From: Bacteroidota bacterium
GTDB taxonomy: Bacteria; Bacteroidota; Bacteroidia; Bacteroidales; JACABE01
DNA length: 55,945 bases
NCBI GenBank assembly: GCA_013377005.1
Contig: JACABE010000010.1
Span: 1-55,945 of the forward strand
Direction: 5' to 3'
Shown: in pieces, positions 5,447 to 34,820 of the stretch
Layout of the letters: each line of letters opens with the position of its first letter
Position numbering within the stretch: the first letter of the stretch is position 1
Made by a program: the position numbers and the translations under genes
The notes under the pieces: generated by a model
Database searches by the model: none
The model's input: the letters and a program-made list of their open reading frames with translations, nothing else
Told to the model about the DNA's origin: nothing

Positions 5447-7222
5447 ATGAAACGTATTTCCATTACCGAAAAATTAATCTTTTATTTTGTTTCCTTAGGT
5501 GTTATGGTGATTATCATCATAGGTTCTTATACTTATTTTTTTGCAAAGCAAGCATTGCTTAACCGCACCTTTGATCAGCTTATTTCCCTGCGTTTAGAAA
5601 AGAAAAACAGAATAGAGCAGTTTTTTATCGACAGAGATAGAGATATCAATATTATTTCTAAATCGGAAGAATGCAGGAGAATAATTGATGTACTGAATTC
5701 AGAAATTTTAACTGCCGATAGAGCCAATAAGCTTCAAAATAATTCCAATTTAAGTAAATTTATTAGTTCTTATGGTTATTATCATAAGCTATATGTAATA
5801 AATAATATTGATTCTGTTTTTACTATTAATTCCCCTCAGTCTGAATTGTGCAATTACGCTGATTTTACAACAAATTCAAATAAGAGTTTACAGCAGTTTT
5901 GTAAAGAAATAGGAAAGTCGAAGAAAACAATTATTCAGGATATAAATAAATCTATTCAATTAATATACATCGGAACGCCCGTTTTAAATGAAGAAAAAAA
6001 CATTCAGGGATTTGTTGTATTAGAAATTCCTATTACTGCTATCAATAAAATAATGTTTGGGTATTCAGAAAACAATGGGCTGGGAAAATCGGGTGAAACC
6101 TATTTGGTAGGCAATGATTATTTGATGAGAAGTAATTCGAGGTTTAGAGAAAATGCCGTTTCTACTATTAAAGTAACATCAACATCTGTTATCAATGCTT
6201 TTAAGGGTATCATCGATTGTGATATTGTAAAGGATTACAGAAATATTTCCTGTTTGAGTTCATACAGCAAAATGGATATTGATGGACTTAACTGGGTTAT
6301 ATTAGCCGAAATAAACGAAGACGAAGCAATGATTCCTGTTTTTGCAATTAGAAACAGCATATTGCTGATAAGTTTAATTATTGCAGCAAGTGTTTTTGTT
6401 TTTGCTTATTTTGTTTCAAAAAGAATTACTTCGCCTATTAAACGCTTACAAAAAGCAAGTGAGGAAATAGGTTGCGGAAATTATGACGTTGTTCTTGATA
6501 TATCGGAGATGGATGAAATAGGAATGCTTACGGAAGCATTTAATACCATGTCGTTGCGGTTAAAGAAGCAATGTGTTGAATTGGATGAAGAGAAAACGAA
6601 AAGATTCAGTTCGTTGATAGATGGACAAGAAATGGAGAGACAGCGATTGTCGAGAGATATGCACGATAGCTTGGGACAATCATTGTTAGCTGTAAAAATA
6701 AAGCTCGAACATGCCAAAAACTCTAACTATGAAAAGAGCCAACAACTCATATTGGAAACTCAGGAACTATTAAGCTCAACGATTAATGAAATAAAGAATA
6801 TTTCGAACGACCTTATGCCTCCTGTTTTGGAGGCTTTCGGATTGGAGCAGGGCTTGAGAACGCTGTGCAAAAACACTGCAACAAACACGGGTATTCCTAT
6901 TGAGTTTCATAGTGAAAATATTCCTGACGCCTTGGATGCAAGATTGCAAATGTATTTGTACCGTATTTCGCAGGAAGCTATCAATAATATCAGCAAACAT
7001 TCTGCTGCTTCGCAGGTACGTTTTTCGATAACATCTGTTGAAAATTCTATCTTCTTAAACATAAGCGATAACGGAAAGGGCTTTGATATGGGTAATATTC
7101 ATGAAAAGAGCAATGGAATTCTGAATATTAAAGAAAGAGTTAAGTTGCTGAAAGGAGAATGTGTGTTTCATTCGACGATAGAAAACGGAACGCAAATTGA
7201 AATAATGATACCTTTAATTTAA
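5447..7222 (+). CDS. sensor histidine kinase, dCache-HAMP-HisKA_3 (NarX/DesK class)
   Basis: Membrane sensor kinase of 591 residues. A first membrane helix at about 11-33 and a second at 302-323 bracket an extracytoplasmic dCache-like domain (about 35-295; GKSGETYLVG near 214-223 is typical). HAMP follows (324-376), then a HisKA_3 dimerisation domain with the phospho-acceptor His in DMHDSLGQ (H406), and an HATPase domain (about 490-590) with QEAINNISKHS (N box) and DNGKGF. It should sense a small extracellular ligand and phosphorylate a NarL-type regulator. The regulator gene starts 307 bases downstream and is the obvious partner; a second one at 15235 is also a candidate. The ligand is unknown. 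Confidence 0.88.
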   Translation: MKRISITEKLIFYFVSLGVMVIIIIGSYTYFFAKQALLNRTFDQLISLRLEKKNRIEQFFIDRDRDINIISKSEECRRIIDVLNSEILTADRANKLQNNSNLSKFISSYGYYHKLYVINNIDSVFTINSPQSELCNYADFTTNSNKSLQQFCKEIGKSKKTIIQDINKSIQLIYIGTPVLNEEKNIQGFVVLEIPITAINKIMFGYSENNGLGKSGETYLVGNDYLMRSNSRFRENAVSTIKVTSTSVINAFKGIIDCDIVKDYRNISCLSSYSKMDIDGLNWVILAEINEDEAMIPVFAIRNSILLISLIIAASVFVFAYFVSKRITSPIKRLQKASEEIGCGNYDVVLDISEMDEIGMLTEAFNTMSLRLKKQCVELDEEKTKRFSSLIDGQEMERQRLSRDMHDSLGQSLLAVKIKLEHAKNSNYEKSQQLILETQELLSSTINEIKNISNDLMPPVLEAFGLEQGLRTLCKNTATNTGIPIEFHSENIPDALDARLQMYLYRISQEAINNISKHSAASQVRFSITSVENSIFLNISDNGKGFDMGNIHEKSNGILNIKERVKLLKGECVFHSTIENGTQIEIMIPLI

Positions 7223-7337
7223 TAAAATGAAACTTTCATGACAAATAAATTTTGACGCACAAGGGAATGATTATAATGTGAAAAAAATAGCAAGAAGACT
7301 AAAATCATGTACATTGAGCAAAGTTGAAATGAAAATA

Positions 7338-7440
7338 GAACGCTGATGACGCAGATTCCTATAGGAAAACACAGATAAAAACGGATTTTAAATCAGTATA
7401 AAATCCGCGTTTACGGAACGTATCCGTGTTATCAGCGTTC
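7338..7440. repeat. 103-bp imperfect palindromic (MITE/REP-like) element
   Basis: The outer arms are GAACGCTGAT and ATCAGCGTTC. Inside lies a second dyad, CGGATTTTA against TAAAATCCG, around position 7400. The whole can fold as one long imperfect hairpin. It fills the 307-base gap between the kinase and regulator genes. I recall similar CGCTGAT...ATCAGCG dispersed elements in other Bacteroidota genomes, but only one copy is in this window. Confidence 0.55.
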
Positions 7441-7529
7441 CAATTAAAGCATGAACACAAACATTCTTTAGTGTTTTGTAACAAATTTTAAAATAACTGA
7501 ATATCTATAATTATACATAATATATACAC

Positions 7530-8183
7530 ATGAATAAAATAAAAATTGTATTGGTAGATGATCATCGCTTGTTTTTGGATGGAATAAAATCGCTTTTATC
7601 TGAAGTTGATTTTATTGATATTATCGGCGAAGCATCCAGCGGCAATGAAGCTTTAGATTTGCTTTCAAACATAAAACCTGACATAATCATGATGGATATC
7701 AGTATGAAGGGGCTTTCGGGTATTGACGTTTCAAAGGAAATTACGAAGCTGTATCCTGATATAAAAATTATGATATTATCGATGCACACCAACGAAGAGT
7801 TTGTGATAAATGCAATTAAAGCAGGTGCCAAAGGTTATTTATCAAAAGATACTTCCAAGGAAGAATTGCTGGATGCGATACAAATTATACAAGAGGGTGG
7901 CGAATGTTACAGCAAGCTGATTTCGGAAAACTTCCTGAAAAGTTATGTGAAAAAATACAAAGCTGAGCAGAGTTTGATAGAAAACAAAATACTTACCCAA
8001 AGAGAAATTGAAATACTTAAGCTTGCCGTACATGGCTTAAGCAATAAGGAAATTGCCGATAAGCTTTTTATAAGCACCAAAACGGTGGATAGCCATAAAA
8101 ACAATATTATGCAAAAGCTAAAGCTGAAAAATACGGCTGAAATGGTGTTGTATGCAGTAAAAAATAAGCTTATTGAAATATAA
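7530..8183 (+). CDS. NarL/FixJ-family response regulator
   Basis: Cytoplasmic DNA-binding response regulator of 217 residues. The receiver domain (about 4-120) has the acidic pair D10/D11, the phospho-acceptor D56 in IMMDIS and the conserved Lys in AGAKGYLSK (about 105). A LuxR-type helix-turn-helix occupies about 148-210 (LTQREIEILKL, IADKLFIS, VDSHKNNIMQKL). It follows the histidine kinase and should be its output. It is a clear paralogue of the regulator at 15235. Its last codons lie in a 26-bp sequence repeated exactly at 12630, so the stop codon sits inside a possible insertion junction. An active-site residue is not missing and the length is normal. Confidence 0.88.
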   Translation: MNKIKIVLVDDHRLFLDGIKSLLSEVDFIDIIGEASSGNEALDLLSNIKPDIIMMDISMKGLSGIDVSKEITKLYPDIKIMILSMHTNEEFVINAIKAGAKGYLSKDTSKEELLDAIQIIQEGGECYSKLISENFLKSYVKKYKAEQSLIENKILTQREIEILKLAVHGLSNKEIADKLFISTKTVDSHKNNIMQKLKLKNTAEMVLYAVKNKLIEI

Positions 8184-8189
8184 TGATGG
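8164..8189 (+). repeat. 26-bp direct repeat, left copy
   Basis: Identical to 12630-12655. It covers the last codons and stop of the response regulator plus 6 bases of flank. See the right copy for the segment it bounds. Confidence 0.75.
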
Positions 8190-8299
8190 GGTGGTTTTAG
8201 GTTACGATAGTTGGATGGTTGCTTTTTAGTTTTTAGAGTGTGGGGCTATTGTCGATTAATTACTGGCATAGCAGGATACTTTATTATAGTTTTTTTTAA

Positions 8300-8701
8300 T
8301 TATTCAATTATTTTAATTTCTGAAAATCTTTTTTTTATATTATTTATAAGATTATTATTTGTAGTATTTATAACCCAATATGAAGAGTCAAAGATCGAAA
8401 TAATAATTTCATTCATTTCATTTTTTCCTTTGATTGTCCCGTCAATTATTTGAATATTACCATTAGCAATTCTGTTTAAATCATTATATTTTATTTCATA
8501 ATTAATCATAGATATTGCTTCTTCGCAAAAAAGATAATCTTCTTGTGATATTTCTGAAATATTAGTTTTCGGTTCGATATAATTGAAATTAATTTCACTT
8601 AAAAACCACCTATAACCCTCTACATTATTAATTAATCTTAAAATATCTCTTAAGTCAAACGAAAGAAAACCATTTATTTCATCAGTAATTGTAATTTTCA
8701 T
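8300..8701 (-). CDS. hypothetical protein, 133 residues
   Basis: An uncharacterised small protein with no signal peptide or membrane helix. It is acidic and rich in Ile and Asn, with several aromatic residues (GYRWFLSE near 29-36, SSYWVIN near 106-112). The alternation of polar and hydrophobic residues suggests a compact alpha/beta fold. I do not recognise a family. The size and style are like some immunity proteins of polymorphic toxin systems, but no toxin gene is adjacent, so this is only a guess. It is more AT-rich than the P-type ATPase nearby and lies inside the 26-bp-repeat-bounded segment, in opposite orientation to the regulator it follows. A shorter plus-strand frame at 8211-8453 overlaps it and is judged a shadow. 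Confidence 0.55.
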   Translation of the reverse strand: MKITITDEINGFLSFDLRDILRLINNVEGYRWFLSEINFNYIEPKTNISEISQEDYLFCEEAISMINYEIKYNDLNRIANGNIQIIDGTIKGKNEMNEIIISIFDSSYWVINTTNNNLINNIKKRFSEIKIIE

Positions 8702-8822
8702 AAAAGTATTAATATAAAATAAAACTGACCAAATAACTATTACTTGTGTTTATTTAAGAAAATCTGAACAAAGCATGTCATTTTGGATGACTTTTTGCAG
8801 TTTTCTATATCCATTTCTCTTG

Positions 8823-8830
8823 CAAATATA
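8823..8830 (-). promoter_or_regulatory. possible -7 element for the 133-residue protein
   Basis: TATATTTG on the minus strand, 122 bases before the start at 8701, implying a long leader. Confidence 0.25.
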
Positions 8831-8926
8831 GTTTTATTTTCACTGTAATAATCTAAAGATATTAAATTATTTCAAGTGTTTTTAATGTTGATTTTTCCCG
8901 CTTTTGAGCCGTAGATGTGCGAGAAG

Positions 8927-9136
8927 CTTTCGGGAGTTCCCGAAACCATGCCGTAGCAATGCAGCACACTTTCGGATGTTCCCGAAACCATGCCGTAGCA
9001 TTGCAGCACCCTTTCGGAAGTTCCCGAAACCATGTCGTAGTATAGCAGCACACTTTCGGAAGTTCCCGAAACCTTGCTATTGTATTGCAACATACTTTCG
9101 GAAGTTTCCGACGGTTTGTCGTAGGTTTTCTGTATA
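8927..9136. repeat. 42-bp tandem array 1, five units
   Basis: Units start at 8927, 8969, 9011, 9053 and 9095; the last is degenerate. Each begins with a short inverted repeat around a GT centre. In unit 1 it is a perfect 8-2-8 dyad (TTTCGGGA, GT, TCCCGAAA). Units 3 and 4 have one A-C mismatch on the plus strand that becomes a G-U pair in minus-strand RNA, and unit 5 changes the partner base to restore pairing. Because 42 is a multiple of three, reading frames of up to 93 codons stay open on both strands, coding 14-residue repeats; these are judged non-genic. The array lies between the 133-residue gene and the P-type ATPase. Confidence 0.85.
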
Positions 9137-9221
9137 TATTTGTACTGTATCATCGTATTTTAGAAATTGTCTGTTGATGTTTTAAATACAAAAAATTGTC
9201 AGGTTTGTTTAAGTATGAGAA

Positions 9222-9285
9222 AACCCTCGAAGGGTTGAAATGATTCAGTTTAAAATAAATAAAAACATTAAACCCTTCGAGGGTT
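9222..9285. repeat. pair of inverted CTCGA/TCGAG hairpins
   Basis: AACCCTCGAAGGGTT (9222-9236) and its exact reverse complement (9271-9285) are 34 bases apart. Each is itself a 6-3-6 hairpin, and the two can also pair with each other. This is the geometry of paired REP elements. It lies between array 1 and the terminator of the P-type ATPase. Confidence 0.6.
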
Positions 9286-9308
9286 AAAGCATATCGGACA
9301 GACAAAAA

Positions 9309-9338
9309 GAAGCCAACAATTTTACAATTGTTGGCTTC
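9309..9338 (-). terminator. Rho-independent terminator of P-type ATPase operon
   Basis: A perfect 13-bp stem (GAAGCCAACAATT and its complement) with a 4-base loop, followed on the minus strand by TTTTTGTC. It ends transcription from the ATPase gene, whose stop is at 9463. Confidence 0.8.
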
Positions 9339-9462
9339 AATGAATAAAAAGAACCTTTTAATAATTTGCAGAACAAAGATACATCATATTTGATGTAAAA
9401 TCGTAAAACTATATTATTTTTTTCTGATGCTGTCAGGAGCTTCGCACGTTGGCAGGTTTTTT

Positions 9463-12210
9463 TTAATTCAGGGGTTGTTTTTTACTTTCTTTATTACTTG
9501 AAATCAGATTGAGTCTTTTTTTACTTTCAAATATTAAAAGACAAATGGCTCCGGTGCCTATTGGCAATATCCAATCGGCAATACCCAGTGGCGAAGTATG
9601 AAAGTACAGATTGAGCAAAGGCACATAAACAATCAACAATATACACGATATTGAGAATAATATTGCCAGCAGCAGATTTCTATTTGAAAACAGATATTTC
9701 CCCAAGGCATTGCCATAAGTTCTTCGCGAAAGCAAATTGGCAAACTGACCGAAAACAACAGAAATAAAAGTAATAGTAATCGCTTTTTCGTACTGATGCG
9801 GCATATTTTGATTGTGAAAATACGAATACAAAAAAGCTCCATACGCAACAACTCCCATTATTATACCCGAAAAAGCTATCCCTTTCATGGTATCTTTGGT
9901 AAGTATTTTGTCTTTTGGGTTTCGTGGCGGTTTTTCCATGATACTTTTCTCAGGAGGATCAAAGGTAAGCATAATCAGCGGAAACATTTCGCCTACAATA
10001 TCTATCAATAAAATCTGTAAAGCTAATATAGGAATTGGCAAACCAAAGAAAACACCTACAAAGCCTGTAAGCACACATGTAAGCTCTGCCACGTTGGATC
10101 CCAGATTTGTTATTATGGTCTTTTCCAGGTTGCGAAATATGGTTCTTCCTTCTTTAATAGCCACAACTATGGTTGAGAAATTATCGTCGAGCAATATCAT
10201 ATTGGCAGCTTCCTGAGCTACTTTGGAGCCGTTTTTCCCCATGGCAATTCCAATGTCGGCTCTCTTCAAACTCAATGTATCGTTCACCCCATCGCCGGTT
10301 ACTGCAACAATTTCGCCCTGTTTCATCAGCAAATCAACCAAACGGAACTTATCATCAGGCGATACCCTCGAAAATATAACAGCCCTGTTTTTAAATATCT
10401 TTTTCAGCTCCGCATCTTTCATCGATTGCAAATCTTCACCCTTTACAATTACAGGAAATGCATCGTTCTCATTCATCAATCCGATATTTTTCGAAATAGC
10501 TCTTGCCGTTACTTCGTTATCGCCGGTTATGATAAATACTTTAATATGTGCTTTAAAAACAGAAGCAAGAGCAGTTTTCACTTCCTTATGGGGCGGATCG
10601 TACATCGTTACAAATCCTGCAAAGACGATATCCTTTTCCGCTTCTTCAATGGTATATTCTTTTTTGTGTTCAAGGTCTTTGTATCCAATTGCAATCACCC
10701 GCAGTGCCTGTTCGGAATATACAGCCGACATCTTAAGCATTTCCTTTTTTTTGGCAGCTGTAAGTTCAGTCATTTTGCCATTGATAATAATTTTGCTAGC
10801 TGCTTCCAGCACCGACTCAATAGAACCTTTTACAAATGAAATGACTTTCTTTTTATGCGATCTTATAATGGTAGCTCTTTTGCGGAATGAATCAAAGGCA
10901 AATGCTTTTATCAAAGGATAAGTCTTTTCAATTTCATCCGGCTTAAAGCCGGCTTTCATTGCCAGTGTCGAAAATGAAGTTTCAGTAGGGTCGCCAATAG
11001 AATACCATGAAGAATGATTCTTATCAGGAGGACTTACTCTGCCTGTAGATGAAAGAAAGCCCGAAAGGAAAAAGATTTTCAAATCGCCTAAAGATGCTTT
11101 TTTTAAGACTACATTTTTTTCATCTGTAATATTGCCGACAGGTTCATAACCCAATCCATCAACCGAAAATGTTTCCCCGTTAAAATAGCAAGCGGTAATG
11201 GTCATTTCGTTTTTAGTAATGGTTCCGGTTTTGTCAGAAGCAATTACCGTAGCCGAACCCAAGGTTTGTGATGAGGCAATCTTTTTTACAATAGCCTTTC
11301 TTTTAGCCAAACGTGCAACAGCCAGCGATAATGCCATCGAAATTTGTGCAGGCAAACCTTCGGGCACCATTGCTGCAGCAACACTTACCGAAAAAACAAG
11401 TGCCATTGCAATGCTATCTTTCATAAGCAAACGCGATGCAAAGAGAACAGCGGCAATAAGCAAAGTGATTAAGGTGAGTTTTTTTGCTACATCAGCAATT
11501 TCAATCTGAACAGGTGCGTTGGTTGTTTTTATCCGCTGCGAAGTTGCGTTTATTTTACCAATCTCTGTGAGTATTCCTGTGGCATAAACAATACCGGTTG
11601 CTTCGCCTCTTGCAACTGTTGTTCCCATGTAAATACAATTTTTTATTTCAGAAAAGGCAAGGGTTTTATCCGAAGTAAACAAATGATCTTTGTTTGAGGG
11701 CAGCGATTCTCCTGTGAGTATAAATTCATTGGTCGAAAAGTTATCCGATGCTATCAGACGGATATCGGCAGGAATACCTTCACCCTCGCTTAGCTTTACC
11801 ATATCACCCGGCACGAGGTCTTCAACAAGAATTTCAATTACCTTTCCGTTTCTTATTACATTGCATTTTTCTACAACCAAACTTTTTAGCGAAGCCAGAA
11901 TGTTTTCTGATTTCCATTCTTCGTAAAAACCAATCGCTGCATTTACGATAACGATAATAATAAGGATTAATCCATCGCGAAATTGCCCTAAATAAAATGA
12001 CACAGCAGAGGCTACAATCAAAATTAATACAAGCGGACTAATGAATTGACGTATGATAATTTTAAAAACACTGATGGTATGAATTGCTTTCAGAACATTG
12101 CTACCATACTTTTGCTTTGCCTGTTTTATTTTGCTTTCATTGAGTCCGTCTTTCACATTGCTGTTAAGTTCCTTTACAACAGTATCAATATTTTCTTTGT
12201 AAAATTCCAT
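9463..12210 (-). CDS. P-type (P2) cation-transporting ATPase
   Basis: A 915-residue membrane pump. The actuator motif TGES is at 167-170, PEGLP of helix M4 at 283-287, the phosphorylation site DKTGT at 326-330, and the hinge TGDGVND at 638-644. M5 has N706 and E709 as in calcium pumps. M6, however, reads LLIDIVGEMFP, with D737 and E741 where SERCA has Asn and Asp; an Asp at the first position recalls Na,K-ATPases. The transported ion is therefore uncertain among Ca2+, Na+ and others. It has the usual C-terminal M7-M10 region. A gene for a small membrane protein lies 36 bases upstream and is probably co-transcribed. Its GC content looks higher than in the neighbouring hypothetical genes, which fits lateral gain. 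Confidence 0.88.
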   Translation of the reverse strand: MEFYKENIDTVVKELNSNVKDGLNESKIKQAKQKYGSNVLKAIHTISVFKIIIRQFISPLVLILIVASAVSFYLGQFRDGLILIIIVIVNAAIGFYEEWKSENILASLKSLVVEKCNVIRNGKVIEILVEDLVPGDMVKLSEGEGIPADIRLIASDNFSTNEFILTGESLPSNKDHLFTSDKTLAFSEIKNCIYMGTTVARGEATGIVYATGILTEIGKINATSQRIKTTNAPVQIEIADVAKKLTLITLLIAAVLFASRLLMKDSIAMALVFSVSVAAAMVPEGLPAQISMALSLAVARLAKRKAIVKKIASSQTLGSATVIASDKTGTITKNEMTITACYFNGETFSVDGLGYEPVGNITDEKNVVLKKASLGDLKIFFLSGFLSSTGRVSPPDKNHSSWYSIGDPTETSFSTLAMKAGFKPDEIEKTYPLIKAFAFDSFRKRATIIRSHKKKVISFVKGSIESVLEAASKIIINGKMTELTAAKKKEMLKMSAVYSEQALRVIAIGYKDLEHKKEYTIEEAEKDIVFAGFVTMYDPPHKEVKTALASVFKAHIKVFIITGDNEVTARAISKNIGLMNENDAFPVIVKGEDLQSMKDAELKKIFKNRAVIFSRVSPDDKFRLVDLLMKQGEIVAVTGDGVNDTLSLKRADIGIAMGKNGSKVAQEAANMILLDDNFSTIVVAIKEGRTIFRNLEKTIITNLGSNVAELTCVLTGFVGVFFGLPIPILALQILLIDIVGEMFPLIMLTFDPPEKSIMEKPPRNPKDKILTKDTMKGIAFSGIIMGVVAYGAFLYSYFHNQNMPHQYEKAITITFISVVFGQFANLLSRRTYGNALGKYLFSNRNLLLAILFSISCILLIVYVPLLNLYFHTSPLGIADWILPIGTGAICLLIFESKKRLNLISSNKESKKQPLN

Positions 12211-12246
12211 TATATAAAAACTTTATGAAACAAAAAGGATAACAAT

Positions 12247-12474
12247 TTATAACTTTGAGTGAGTTTGAGGCGGTGGTTGTTTGCTGGGTGCAAATGCAAA
12301 GTCAACACTTATTACATAATATCCAATAGCAGATAATGTAAGAATAAAGAAAATCCAGAAAATCCAGGAATGATGTATTCTTCTCCATGAGCCTTTATTG
12401 AGATGATGACCTGTAAAATGATCCTGCCAATCCTGTGAAGGTTGTTCTTTACCATTGATATTTATTGTTTTCAT
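12247..12474 (-). CDS. small single-helix membrane protein upstream of the ATPase
   Basis: A 75-residue protein with a polar, His- and Trp-rich N-terminus (about 1-40, including DWQDHF, GHHLNKGSWRRIHHSW), one membrane helix (about 38-57) and a short proline-rich tail (PSKQPPPQ). The Arg-Arg-Ile-His-His just before the helix suggests the N-terminus is cytoplasmic. It precedes the P-type ATPase gene by 36 bases on the same strand. Small one-helix proteins regulate animal calcium pumps, so a modulating role is attractive, but this is inference from position and shape only. I have a weak memory of similar sequences with Trp-rich helix starts in other Bacteroidota. Confidence 0.6.
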   Translation of the reverse strand: MKTININGKEQPSQDWQDHFTGHHLNKGSWRRIHHSWIFWIFFILTLSAIGYYVISVDFAFAPSKQPPPQTHSKL

Positions 12475-12629
12475 GTGATTATTTTTAATTATTAGAAACC
12501 TATAGCATAATATCCCGCAATTGATAATAAAACAAAAGCCTTAGAACTTACAAAGATGCAGTGTTTTTATGCGAAAAGTATTACACAATTCTGTTTGTAA
12601 TTTATATAATTCACAGCTATATAATGAAG

Positions 12630-12655
12630 ATAAGCTTATTGAAATATAATGATGG
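12630..12655 (+). repeat. 26-bp direct repeat, right copy
   Basis: Exact copy of 8164-8189, the 3' end of the response regulator gene. After it comes TTTTTAGATTTT, like the sequence after the second regulator at 15908, as though this is original 3' flank. The two copies bound about 4.44 kb that contains the ATPase cassette and array 1. Confidence 0.75.
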
Positions 12656-12732
12656 AATTTTTAGATTTTGAAAACTATCCTAAGAATATTTCTTACTTCA
12701 TCAAAATATTTCTTATATATAAATCATACTTT

Positions 12733-12756
12733 ATCCTATTGTATGAAAAATAGGAT
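12733..12756. promoter_or_regulatory. inverted repeat overlapping the porin promoter
   Basis: ATCCTAT and ATAGGAT arms with a 10-base spacer lie in and around the -33 region, ending 5 bases before the -7 box. A further ATAGGAT follows at about 12784. The position suits a repressor or response-regulator site. Confidence 0.35.
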
Positions 12757-12769
12757 GGTTTTACATTTG
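12739..12769 (+). promoter_or_regulatory. promoter for porin-ammonium transporter operon
   Basis: TTG at 12739-12741, 20 bases, then TACATTTG at 12762-12769, matching TAnnTTTG. The leader to the start codon at 12905 would be about 130 bases. Confidence 0.45.
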
Positions 12770-12904
12770 TAGACCAAAAGTAATAGGATGATGAATTGAA
12801 AATATCATAAACATTTCATCAACAAAATCTATTAAAATATAGCCAAAAACAAATAGATGATATATTTTAGTAAATTAGCAACTTAATTTTAAAAAACATA
12901 ACAC

Positions 12905-13666
12905 ATGAAAGCGAAATTTACAAACCTAAGTTTATTATTCTTACTACTATTTTGCACTACCTTGAAGTCGCAAAACAATAGTGATTCCACAAAATCAACA
13001 ATCAAAATAAATGTAAGCGCTGATATCGTAAGCAGATATGTATGGCGTGGTATTGATTATGGAAATTCTCCAGCCATTCAACCAACATTATCACTTACGG
13101 CTAAAAATCTTGAAATAGGTTGTTGGGGTTCGGTAGCAACCTATAGTTTTTATAAAGAAATAGATTTGTATGCCAAATATACTTATAAGAAGTTTACTTT
13201 GATATTTACAGATTATTACATTCCTTCCTATAATGGAACACCTGCTGCTCCCGACACTCGTTTTTTTACATTTAAAGATAAAACCACTGCACATAGTTTT
13301 GAAGCTTCATTAATGTTTAAAGGTGGAGATAAATTGCCACTTTGGCTATTAGGAGGCGTTTATTTTTATGGAAACGATAAAAGATTGGGTTATGATTTGC
13401 AAAAAGATATTAATGAAGAAACCTATTATTCATCGTATTTCGAAGCAGGTTATACCCTTGCAATACAAGATAACAGTGTTGATTTCATTGTTGGACTAAC
13501 GCCTACTACAGGTGCTTATGCCGACAAATTTGGAGTTGTAAACGTTGGAATAAGCGGAAGTAGGAAAATAAAAATTTCCGATAGTTTTGAATTACCATTA
13601 AAAGCATCAATGATATTTAACCCTAAAGCATCAACAGCACACTTTACTTTAGGAATTACATTATAA
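12905..13666 (+). CDS. TorF-family (Gcw_chp) putative porin
   Basis: A 253-residue predicted outer-membrane beta-barrel. Residues 1-22 are a signal peptide (basic start, LLFLLLFCTT, cut near LKSQ). The mature start carries the family hallmark DIVSRYVWRGIDYGNSPAIQP (split: DIVSRYVWRG at about 38-47, then DYGNSPAIQP), followed by alternating amphipathic strands and a final strand ending in HFTLGITL. Family members often sit beside ammonium or other transporters, and here an amtB gene follows 33 bases downstream on the same strand. It probably helps small solutes across the outer membrane for the inner-membrane transporter; no channel activity can be read from the sequence. Confidence 0.75.
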   Translation: MKAKFTNLSLLFLLLFCTTLKSQNNSDSTKSTIKINVSADIVSRYVWRGIDYGNSPAIQPTLSLTAKNLEIGCWGSVATYSFYKEIDLYAKYTYKKFTLIFTDYYIPSYNGTPAAPDTRFFTFKDKTTAHSFEASLMFKGGDKLPLWLLGGVYFYGNDKRLGYDLQKDINEETYYSSYFEAGYTLAIQDNSVDFIVGLTPTTGAYADKFGVVNVGISGSRKIKISDSFELPLKASMIFNPKASTAHFTLGITL

Positions 13667-13699
13667 ATAAAATTAATAAACAATTAAATCTCAACAATT

Positions 13700-14920
13700 A
13701 TGTTAGAAACTGGTTCAACCGGCTTTATGTTATTAGCCGCAAGTTTAGTAATGCTTATGACACCTGCTTTGGCTTTGTTTTATGGTGGCTTGGCTACAAA
13801 AAGAAACATTCTGGGTATTATGATTCAGAGTTTTGCTTCTTTAGGATGGACAACCGTTCTATGGTTTATTTTTGGTTATTCTTTATGTTTCAGCGGAGGT
13901 GCCGGTGGTATTATGGGCAACTTTGATAAAGCATTTATGAATGGTGTTTCCATTGACTCAATGTATGCTGGTAATAGTAAGATTCCAGAAATCGTTTTCT
14001 TTGTTTATCAGATGATGTTTGCTATTATTACTCCTGCGCTTATTACAGGTGCTTTTGCTAATCGTGTAACTTTTAAATCATATATGTTATTCTTAACTGT
14101 ATGGCAAATTTTTGTTTACTATCCATTCGTACACATGATATGGGGTGGTGGTTTATTACAAGTATGGGGTGTTCTTGACTTTGCAGGTGGTATTGTAGTA
14201 CATGCAACAGCTGGTTTCGCTGCGTTGGCATCCGTATTTTATGTGGGTGCCAGGGTTGACAAAAACTCTACACCAAATAGTATTCCTTTGGTAGCCATCG
14301 GTAGTGGTTTATTATGGTTTGGATGGTATGGTTTTAATGCCGGAAGTGAGCTTTGTGTTGACAAAGTTACTGCTTTAGCATTTTTCAATACTGATATCGC
14401 TGCTTCGTTTGCAACTGTTGCATGGGTAGTTATTGAATGGTCACGAGAAAGGAAACCAAAGTTTGTGGGATTGCTTACAGGTTCTATTGCAGGGCTTGCG
14501 ACAATTACTCCATGTGCAGGATTCATACCTATGTGGGCTGCGCCTATTATAGGAACTGCTGCAGGTATTGTATGTTACCTTGCTGTAATGTTGAAAAATA
14601 GAATGAAATGGGATGATGCCTTGGATGTATGGGGTGTTCACGGTGTAGGTGGAGTATTAGGTACTATATTATTGGGAGTTTTTGCATCAAAAGCTATCAA
14701 TCCAGGAGGAGCTGATGGTTGGATTTTCGGTAATCCAAGTTTCTTTATGAAACAATTAATAGCAGTTATTATAGCATCTGTTTATGCTTTTATATTTACT
14801 TATATTATGCTTATAGTAATAAACTTTATAACTCCTGTACGTGTTTCTGAATCTGATGAATTATTAGGACTCGATGACTCAATACATGGTGAAAGAGCTT
14901 ATGATGAAGGTGCATTGTAA
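13700..14920 (+). CDS. amt: ammonium transporter (Amt family)
   Basis: An inner-membrane ammonium channel of 406 residues with about 11 helices. The key residues align directly: D160 and H168 (LDFAGGIVVHATAG) and the second pore His, H314 (VWGVHGVGG). The cytoplasmic tail keeps the GLDDSIHGERAYDEG stretch that PII proteins contact in other Amt channels. No glnK/PII gene is next to it, which is unusual for bacterial amt loci, so a PII gene is expected elsewhere. There is no signal peptide. It is co-transcribed with the TorF-type porin upstream, ends in a clear terminator, and is followed by a NarL-type regulator. Confidence 0.92.
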   Translation: MLETGSTGFMLLAASLVMLMTPALALFYGGLATKRNILGIMIQSFASLGWTTVLWFIFGYSLCFSGGAGGIMGNFDKAFMNGVSIDSMYAGNSKIPEIVFFVYQMMFAIITPALITGAFANRVTFKSYMLFLTVWQIFVYYPFVHMIWGGGLLQVWGVLDFAGGIVVHATAGFAALASVFYVGARVDKNSTPNSIPLVAIGSGLLWFGWYGFNAGSELCVDKVTALAFFNTDIAASFATVAWVVIEWSRERKPKFVGLLTGSIAGLATITPCAGFIPMWAAPIIGTAAGIVCYLAVMLKNRMKWDDALDVWGVHGVGGVLGTILLGVFASKAINPGGADGWIFGNPSFFMKQLIAVIIASVYAFIFTYIMLIVINFITPVRVSESDELLGLDDSIHGERAYDEGAL

Positions 14921-14994
14921 TATCTAATAAATATCTGTGTAGTGGCTTTTATACAGATATATTCATACTAAAATACCAAGACCAAATATACATG

Positions 14995-15035
14995 AAACCG
15001 CTGTTGGAATTAATTTCTGGCAGCGGTTTTTAATT
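14995..15035 (+). terminator. terminator of amt operon
   Basis: Stem AAACCGCTG (14995-15003) pairs with CAGCGGTTT (15021-15029) and is followed by TTTAATTT. A weaker ATATCTGT/ACAGATAT hairpin precedes it at 14931-14960. Confidence 0.7.
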
Positions 15036-15204
15036 TCATATAGGGGAGAAGTTCTAATAGAATTAGTATGATTGCTCTTTATTATAAAAAGAAGAGTTTT
15101 CATTCCCTAGAGAAATAGATTATAATTAGGATTTTTAAGAACTAACTTCACTACTTCTATTTAATAAGAAGCTGTAAATTAAAACTCTTAATAAAAATTT
15201 TCAT

Positions 15205-15212
15205 TATATTTG
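15205..15212 (+). promoter_or_regulatory. -7 element for second response regulator
   Basis: TATATTTG, 23 bases before the start codon at 15235, fits TAnnTTTG. Confidence 0.45.
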
Positions 15213-15234
15213 TATCCACAAAAAACAACTCTAT

Positions 15235-15894
15235 ATGTCAGGTATTAAAATAATGTTGATTGACGACCATCAAATTGTGAGAGATGGTATAAAAGTTTTG
15301 CTCGAAAGTTTGGAAAATGTGGAAGTAATTGGCGAAGCATCTAATGTAGCAGAGTTATTGGAAAAATTAAAAGATGTTCAGCCTGATATCATAGTAACTG
15401 ATATTTCGATGCCGGATATTTCGGGTATTGAGCTTACCAAGATTATTAACGAAGATAAAAAATACGCGAATATTAAGATTTTGATACTTTCGATGTACAC
15501 CAACGAGGATTTTGTTTTTAATGCGATAAAGGCGGGAGCCAAAGGTTATTTGCCCAAGAATACTACTCGCAAAGAATTATTTGAAGCTGTCAATACTATT
15601 TATAATGGTGATGAATATTTTAGCGAATCTATTTCAAATATTATTCTTAAAAGCTATATCAAGAAAGTAAAATCGGATGAAAATGGCGAAAAAAAGGAAG
15701 CCTTAAGTATTCGTGAAATAGAAATATTAAAACTCTTTGCCGAAGGTATGGCCAATCAGGAAATAGCCGACAAATTGTTTATCAGCATACGAACTGTGGA
15801 ATCGCATAAAAATCATATTATGCAAAAGCTGGCACTCAAAACTACGGTTGATTTATTGAAATTTGCCATCAAAAATAAAATTGTAGAAATATAA
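15235..15894 (+). CDS. NarL/FixJ-family response regulator (orphan)
   Basis: A 219-residue regulator built like the one at 7530: receiver domain with D10/D11 and phospho-acceptor D56 (IVTDIS), Lys in AGAKGYLPK, then a LuxR-type helix-turn-helix at about 150-212 (LSIREIEILKL, IADKLFIS, VESHKNHIMQKL). No kinase gene is adjacent. The closest HisKA_3 kinase is at 5447, beyond the presumed insert, so the two regulators may share it. The similarity of both proteins and of short 3' flanks suggests they arose by duplication. It lies 315 bases after the ammonium transporter, suggesting it regulates nitrogen uptake, which is inference. Confidence 0.85.
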   Translation: MSGIKIMLIDDHQIVRDGIKVLLESLENVEVIGEASNVAELLEKLKDVQPDIIVTDISMPDISGIELTKIINEDKKYANIKILILSMYTNEDFVFNAIKAGAKGYLPKNTTRKELFEAVNTIYNGDEYFSESISNIILKSYIKKVKSDENGEKKEALSIREIEILKLFAEGMANQEIADKLFISIRTVESHKNHIMQKLALKTTVDLLKFAIKNKIVEI

Positions 15895-34610: not shown

Positions 34611-34820
34611 TATTTGTACAACTACTATGTGCAAACTGCAATAGTAGTAAAACATTTGTATAACCCCTATGTGCAAACTACAATAGTCATAAAACATTTG
34701 TATAACCTCTATGTGCAAACTACCATAGTCATAAAACATTTGTATAACCCCTATGTGCAAACTACAATAGTCATAATACAGTTATATAATCCCTATGTAC
34801 AAACTACATTAGTCATTCTG
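34611..34820. repeat. 42-bp tandem array 2, five units
   Basis: Units start at 34611, 34653, 34695, 34737 and 34779; the middle ones differ by only one or two bases. Each contains a hairpin core at unit positions 15-34: CTAT, one bulged base, TGCA, a 3-base loop, TACA, ATAG. In unit 1 the arms extend to a 12-bp stem. The central pair varies between units (TGCA/TGCA, TGTA/TGCA, TGTA/TGTA in the minus strand) and stays paired if G-U is allowed. As in array 1, 42 being a multiple of three keeps frames open on both strands (14-residue repeats); these are not taken as genes. It lies just upstream of the four-repeat membrane protein gene. Confidence 0.85.

Follow-up and report, generated by a model that had tools for sequence, protein, structure and literature searches.

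How did a block of DNA with a P-type ATPase gene come to lie between a response regulator gene and the porin and ammonium transporter genes downstream, with the end of the regulator gene repeated exactly on its far side? The locus lies in a 55,945-nucleotide stretch from a Bacteroidales genome (hereafter the window, meaning the whole stretch of DNA analysed). An earlier note, made from the sequence alone, had likened the arrangement to the way in which site-specific elements insert into gene ends. We find that the cassette is an insertion, the empty site being present in relatives, and we favour, with modest confidence, a single illegitimate insertion with target duplication and no recombinase of its own.

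A 26-bp direct repeat bounds the inserted segment

The native genes, the repeat and the insert are arranged as follows, where G000 denotes the window's own genome, G001, G002 and G003 the other members of its genus (four congeneric genomes in all, G000 included) and G004 a genome of the same family. The label "porin" for the Gcw_chp gene was taken from the earlier note.

5447-7222, + strand: sensor histidine kinase (dCache-HAMP-HisKA_3-HATPase by Pfam, the dCache match below the Pfam cut-off), native upstream gene; order conserved in relatives
7530-8183, + strand: NarL/LuxR-type response regulator (Pfam), frame intact; its 3' end is the insertion target
8164-8189, + strand: left copy of the 26-bp repeat (regulator coding end, stop and 6 nt)
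8190-12629: inserted segment between the copies, 4440 bp, or 4466 bp if one copy is counted
12630-12655, + strand: right copy of the repeat; 11 of its first 15 nt agree with the G003 pump locus
12656-12904, + strand: native flank, porin upstream region (alignment to G001 and G002)
12905-13666, + strand: porin-like protein (Gcw_chp, Pfam), native downstream gene; after the regulator in relatives
13700-14920, + strand: ammonium transporter, native

Sequence comparison bore out the starting observation that ATAAGCTTATTGAAATATAATGATGG occurs as an exact 26-bp direct repeat at 8164-8189 and 12630-12655, and that the left copy spans the last regulator codons, the stop (8181-8183) and six further nucleotides. 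With one mismatch, the repeat extends to 29 nt (8161-8189 and 12627-12655). Two 42-bp tandem arrays aside, it is the sole exact direct repeat of at least 18 nt within 6 kb in the window, where a first-order Markov estimate gives about 5e-6 such 26-mer pairs by chance. The earlier note would have been contradicted by a 26-mer that was an ordinary dispersed repeat, which it is not: in the window's genome (96.85% complete) it occurs at two places only, even with up to 3 mismatches allowed, and at the same tolerance it was not found in G001, G002, G003 or G004.

Comparable repeats are rare elsewhere. At 16 related loci put through the same test, the regulator tail was repeated exactly over at most 7-13 nt within the following 6 kb, and random positions in related loci gave a repeat of at least 26 nt in 2 of 3000 draws. 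A control set of 85 loci (1.24 Mb) contained 25 exact direct repeats of at least 26 nt at a spacing of 0.5-6 kb. Twenty-three of these fell in five loci, each with at least two pairs, a pattern expected of repeated or paralogous stretches. The two isolated ones were in L128 and L058, the former being the common 3' end of two paralogous genes.

Relatives carry the empty site

A profile of the three closest regulators, run against a public genome collection, yielded 71 regulator loci. The regulator is followed by the porin in 16 of them (gap 137-1121 nt), and the ammonium transporter is also present in 15 of the 16, the contig of L045 ending before it. A seventeenth locus, L070, has only a transporter, 8.8 kb off, and overlaps the contig stretch of L049. 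Neither the ATPase gene nor the gene for a 75-aa protein that accompanies it was detected in the available flanks of any of the 71 loci (tblastn, E up to 1e-8); relatives with the cassette and no repeat, the other case that would have told against the note, were thus absent among the 16. Without the cassette, kinase and regulator were expected to adjoin the porin and ammonium transporter genes, and such an order is indeed found in relatives.

The empty sites include those of the congeners G001 (Loclat_bin-11079, L038) and G002 (a Lake Pavin bin, L039), where the kinase lies 2 nt from the regulator (G001) or overlaps it (G002) and the porin and transporter follow. The window's regulator is 85% identical to that of G001 and 82% identical to that of G002. 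The closest matches in G003 and G004 are 53% and 56% identical, and with no close regulator copy the empty site could not be judged in these two genomes. At the empty sites, the regulator coding end that is contained in the repeat is single, and the exact 26-mer has diverged. A duplicated regulator tail was seen in none of the 16 relatives with the regulator-porin order. Among their larger regulator-porin gaps, that of L041 holds a 42-bp array and that of L043 a small ORF, again with no duplicated tail. In the window, the insertion left the regulator reading frame intact, as had been proposed, and we infer that both repeat copies are target sequence.

On the far side of the insert, 12672-12769 aligns with the porin upstream region of G002 (75%) and 12680-12779 with that of G001 (77%); in both genomes the aligned flank is upstream of the porin that adjoins the transporter. 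By this alignment the native flank resumes at 12672-12680, and the 16 nt at 12656-12671 have no confident assignment. The earlier note had also seen a likeness between the flank 3' of the right copy and that of the paralogous regulator further on. The two do have a real 14/15 block in common (shuffle P 0.0015), but this is the best P of eight flanks compared, and the likeness does not extend to the relatives, whose seven flanks gave P 0.16-0.92. Such a block might be expected if the regulator paralogues had exchanged sequence, or if a larger tandem duplication had been partly lost, leaving a regulator end behind the cassette. We find this hardly credible, since the end of the second regulator differs inside the 26-mer, the repeat being that of the first regulator, and from 12672 the flank aligns with native sequence upstream of the porin in G001 and G002.

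Search for mobile-element machinery

The observation that no integrase lies inside the cassette was upheld by Pfam scans, which found no integrase or transposase family in any of the 39 window ORFs of at least 150 aa or in five smaller insert ORFs. The likely genes of the insert are those for the ATPase, the 75-aa protein and an orphan; the remaining ORFs overlap the tandem array or run opposite these genes, and the four included in the scan matched no family. The ends of the insert carry no inverted repeat (P 0.95).

These results bear on two explanations. First, the cassette could be the remnant of a site-specific element, for which an integrase used the 26 bp as attachment core and whose integrase gene was lost or acted from elsewhere. 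Its position at a gene 3' end, the exact restoration of the coding end and a repeat of att-core size are all consistent with this, and the first 10 nt of the 26-mer (ATAAGCTTAT) form a palindrome. However, besides the lack of an integrase in the window and of duplicated tails in the 16 relatives, the exact 26-mer has no match in IMG/VR, and no direct repeat longer than 12-13 nt flanks the other three pump units within 2.5 kb. IMG/VR likewise contains no close relative of the ATPase. Plasmid records matching the ATPase number at least 5000, below 60% identity (32.9-35.4% for the best 8 listed); as these matches are all distant, the comparison with plasmid cargo is uninformative. The 26-mer as an attachment site of other elements, proposed as a check, was negative throughout (genome pattern search, IMG/VR, the 16 regulator tails, pump flanks) and was rejected, and with no integrase, second element or duplicated tail found, the comparison with site-specific elements is not supported. 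We consider such a remnant unlikely.

Second, an insertion sequence or another transposase acting in trans might have moved the cassette with a long target duplication. The flanking direct repeat and the empty site would fit, but neither inverted ends nor a transposase was found, and 26 bp exceeds the usual duplications of bacterial insertion sequences, which counts against transposition. We regard it as highly improbable.

The pump and its partner gene

The earlier note had listed an orphan gene, an array, hairpins and the ATPase pair between the repeat copies, and all were found there:

8300-8701, - strand: orphan ORF, 133 aa, 21.4% G+C
8927-9111: tandem array, 42-bp unit, 4.4 copies
9289-9414, - strand: dispersed module, a TAnnTTTG motif and then a hairpin terminator at 9338-9309 (terminator scan)
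9463-12210, - strand: P-type ATPase, 915 aa, nearest SPCA/PMR1-type Ca2+-ATPases (Pfam, NCBIfam and PDB matches)
12247-12474, - strand: 75-aa protein, partner gene of the ATPase in G000, G001 and G003
12550-12629, - strand: region 5' of the 75-aa gene, conserved in G003 and G002 by alignment and retained in the cassette

The ATPase scores 566 bits against TIGR01522, below the family cut-off of 798. Its nearest PDB chains are named "Calcium-transporting ATPase type 2C member 1", which we take to be another name for SPCA1. The ATPase stretch IDIVGE aligns with INIIMD of the type 2C PDB chain, an exchange of N to D and of D to E. This stretch presumably lies in the sixth membrane helix, with the two substituted positions being ion-site residues, so that the ATPase may transport another ion than calcium.

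Among the loci examined, the 75-aa gene was detected only in G000-G003 (tblastn, 78-84%), and no defence-system or phage family was found for its product. In G002 the 75-aa gene and its upstream region (L128 2273-2509) lie on a different contig from the ATPase gene, so the pair is separable. The composition of the ATPase gene had been thought to look different. Its 38.0% G+C does exceed the 31.1% of the window, but the native ammonium transporter is equally G+C-rich (37.6%), so composition is not diagnostic and was rejected as a sign of foreign origin.

Origin of the pump unit

G001, G002 and G003 each have one close ATPase orthologue (82%, 78% and 89% identity, respectively), each at another locus; the next best ATPase in a sample of 395 genomes of the class was 52% identical (E limit 1e-150). 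In the window's genome, sequence flanking the G001 pump unit matched contigs C45, C6 and C67, and sequence to the right of the G003 unit matched C16 and C8; neither led back to the cassette locus. The G002 unit was placed elsewhere by its neighbouring ORFs only. Homology to G003 covers 9504-12644, that is, the pump, the 75-aa gene and the conserved upstream region, up to the right repeat copy.

The ATPase and RpoB trees conflict. RpoB gave ((G000,G001),G002) with G003 outside, joining G000 and G001 at 96/96 and rejecting G000+G003 (AU p 0.0024). The ATPase tree joined G000 and G003 at 99/99 and rejected G000+G001 (AU p 0.0032), with the clades tested after the identities were known and with one very long outgroup branch in the ATPase set. 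As the AU test rejects in both directions, the pump unit was probably acquired horizontally, and a G003-like relative would be the donor. Hidden paralogy, or an old duplication with differential loss, could also account for the conflict.

The right edge of the insert was compared more closely. The upstream region loses its likeness around 12620-12625, roughly 5-10 nt short of the right repeat copy. The right edge in G003 matches the start of the right copy at 11/15 nt, with all four mismatches being transitions, a level reached by chance at 0.0008-0.0018 of positions. The join may have been guided by this likeness, acting as microhomology. In G002, which also has the upstream region, only 5/15 nt of the same 15-mer match, so that microhomology at this edge is unproven.

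A broader reading can be built on these data, in which the ATPase and 75-aa genes are a wandering two-gene unit, found in four places in four genomes and in tree conflict with RpoB, that moves without a recombinase of its own and is caught where its upstream edge bears a short likeness to host gene ends, the 26-bp repeat being the freshest scar. We hold this to be rather improbable.

The left half of the insert

The left ~1.3 kb of the insert (8190-9462), comprising the orphan, array and hairpins (9271-9285 and 9309-9338), has no counterpart at the pump loci of G001, G002 or G003. Pieces of it recur in the window's genome on five contigs (C23, C15, C5, C26 and C36). With 40 candidates scored in every genome, G002 gave three short weak matches, G004 a single one, and G001 and G003 none. 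The left half being absent at other pump loci and its pieces occurring elsewhere in the genome, the cassette looks composite, with a pump half common to G003 and a left half that has no counterpart there. No relative of the orphan ORF was found in the 39 relatives searched besides its own genome, no family in Pfam, NCBIfam, PHROGs or PADLOC, and no plasmid match.

These findings also bear on the possibility that assembly or binning joined a separate circular or linear molecule at a shared 26-mer. The repeat length is near k-mer size, and the window's genome is probably a metagenome bin (92 contigs), assembled from metagenomic reads. Nevertheless, the pump gene is placed nowhere else in the genome, the left-half pieces lie on five other contigs of that same genome, and two consistent joins would require the 26-mer to be present already in the pump DNA, which is itself the finding. 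We judge an artefact very unlikely.

The dispersed module lies downstream of the ATPase gene on the same strand, and copies occur in the same genome at C23 (84%) and C5 (73%). Rfam gave no match over 7000-15400. The motif TAnnTTTG is presumably a Bacteroidetes promoter. In three copies, at 9301-9414 of the window (- strand), in L028 and in L032, the motif is combined with the terminator, and the module is a candidate for a small RNA family or a shared terminator.

Exact matches to the core pattern of the 42-bp array number four at this locus and one on contig C36, with none in G001-G004. Arrays with a 42-bp period and differing unit sequences were seen in the window (8927-9111 and 34612-34816), L041 (10876-11249), L036 (1390-1495) and L024 (1-128). 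Periods of 21 and 42 made up 13 of the 19 listed arrays with a period of 20-120 and at least 2.3 copies in the window and related loci (1.34 Mb), where one array is counted under both periods and some 21-bp arrays may be coding. Both periods, 21 and 42, are integer multiples of the helical repeat of DNA, and a literature search for 42-bp repeats between genes in Bacteroidetes gave no paper.

A probable single illegitimate insertion with target duplication

A single illegitimate insertion, with duplication of the target and without a recombinase of the cassette's own, is the explanation that we find probable, if by a modest measure. The ATPase gene, its 75-aa partner and local intergenic modules would have been inserted once into the regulator 3' end, and 26 bp of target would have been duplicated, the gene end being rebuilt on one side and the old end kept on the other. 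Joining might have proceeded by a staggered break with fill-in or by a template switch, and the likeness between donor edge and gene end (11/15 nt) may have helped the right-side join. Should the 15 nt have arrived with the donor DNA, just 11 bp would count as target duplication. Read as a single illegitimate insertion, the cassette would represent a familiar type of insertion that left an exceptionally clean scar, and not a new mobile element.

Comparison with known systems

Most gene gain in bacteria is attributed to phages, plasmids, transposons and recombination within long flanking sequences. Integrase-driven genomic islands sit at gene 3' ends, restore the gene end and have a flanking direct repeat. 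The cassette shares the restored 3' end and the flanking repeats; unlike these islands, it has no integrase found, no recurrence at the site and a small cargo. An insertion sequence or composite transposon differs in having a transposase and terminal inverted repeats, neither of which was found here. The cassette thus fails the defining features of both. In homology-facilitated illegitimate recombination during natural transformation, short homology at one edge is combined with unrelated sequence at the other, as here, but recipient DNA is usually lost, whereas 26 bp were gained in our case. The minimal mobile elements of Neisseria are gene cassettes between two conserved genes, as is the cassette, and to our knowledge a flanking repeat is not part of that concept. 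In contrast to them, most of the 16 relatives have short gaps (exceptions being the L041 array and the L043 small ORF), and no exchange of alternative cassettes was seen.

The closest parallel comes from Helicobacter pylori, where restriction-modification genes were inserted with long target duplications (Nobusato et al, 2000, as cited in PMC1643837, PMC3031569, PMC3154945 and PMC4978471). In the accounts given by these citing papers, the block likewise occurs in one genome, is missing from the relative and has a direct repeat on its flanks, and no recombinase is named; the cargo there is restriction-modification, instead of an ion pump, and the host is Helicobacter, not a member of the Bacteroidales. 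An empty site with the same flanking genes was found here in G001, G002 and 14 further loci, and the cargo consists of the P-type ATPase, the 75-aa protein and the orphan, not of restriction-modification genes. In plants, moved genes have been described with flanking repeats that match the target site (PMC2869330). By analogy, the cassette may work like the Helicobacter and plant cases, with a different cargo.

As a clean insert with a 26-bp duplication, an empty site and a candidate donor lineage, the locus is one from which recombinase-free joining might be read in the sequence. It also shows how a regulator and the operon next to it can accommodate a cassette between them with both reading frames intact.

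Further features of the regulator locus

A palindrome, AGGTAAWTTACCTA, occurs with at most 2 mismatches between regulator and porin in 12 of the 16 related loci (L040-L042, L044-L052) and with 3 mismatches in two more; the window match is poor (up to 4 mismatches). It is a possible binding site of the regulator, the counts being uncorrected for chance. The window has no second kinase gene at 14920-15235. In relatives this gene (597 aa in G001, a 257-aa ORF in G002) lies between the transporter and the second regulator, so the second regulator is an orphan in the window. At its regulator-porin locus, G001 has two tandem porin genes (L016 2828-3598 and 3766-4533).

Between kinase and regulator, 7224-7529 of the window is a dispersed repeat of ~300 nt, with 55 matches in the window's genome, 32 in G001, 42 in G003, 2 in G002 and 0 in G004 (40 candidates scored per genome). 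In the window and in several of ten further copies, the repeat or its close flank extends to an ATGAA start codon, and ATGAA is also the point at which tandem copies meet.
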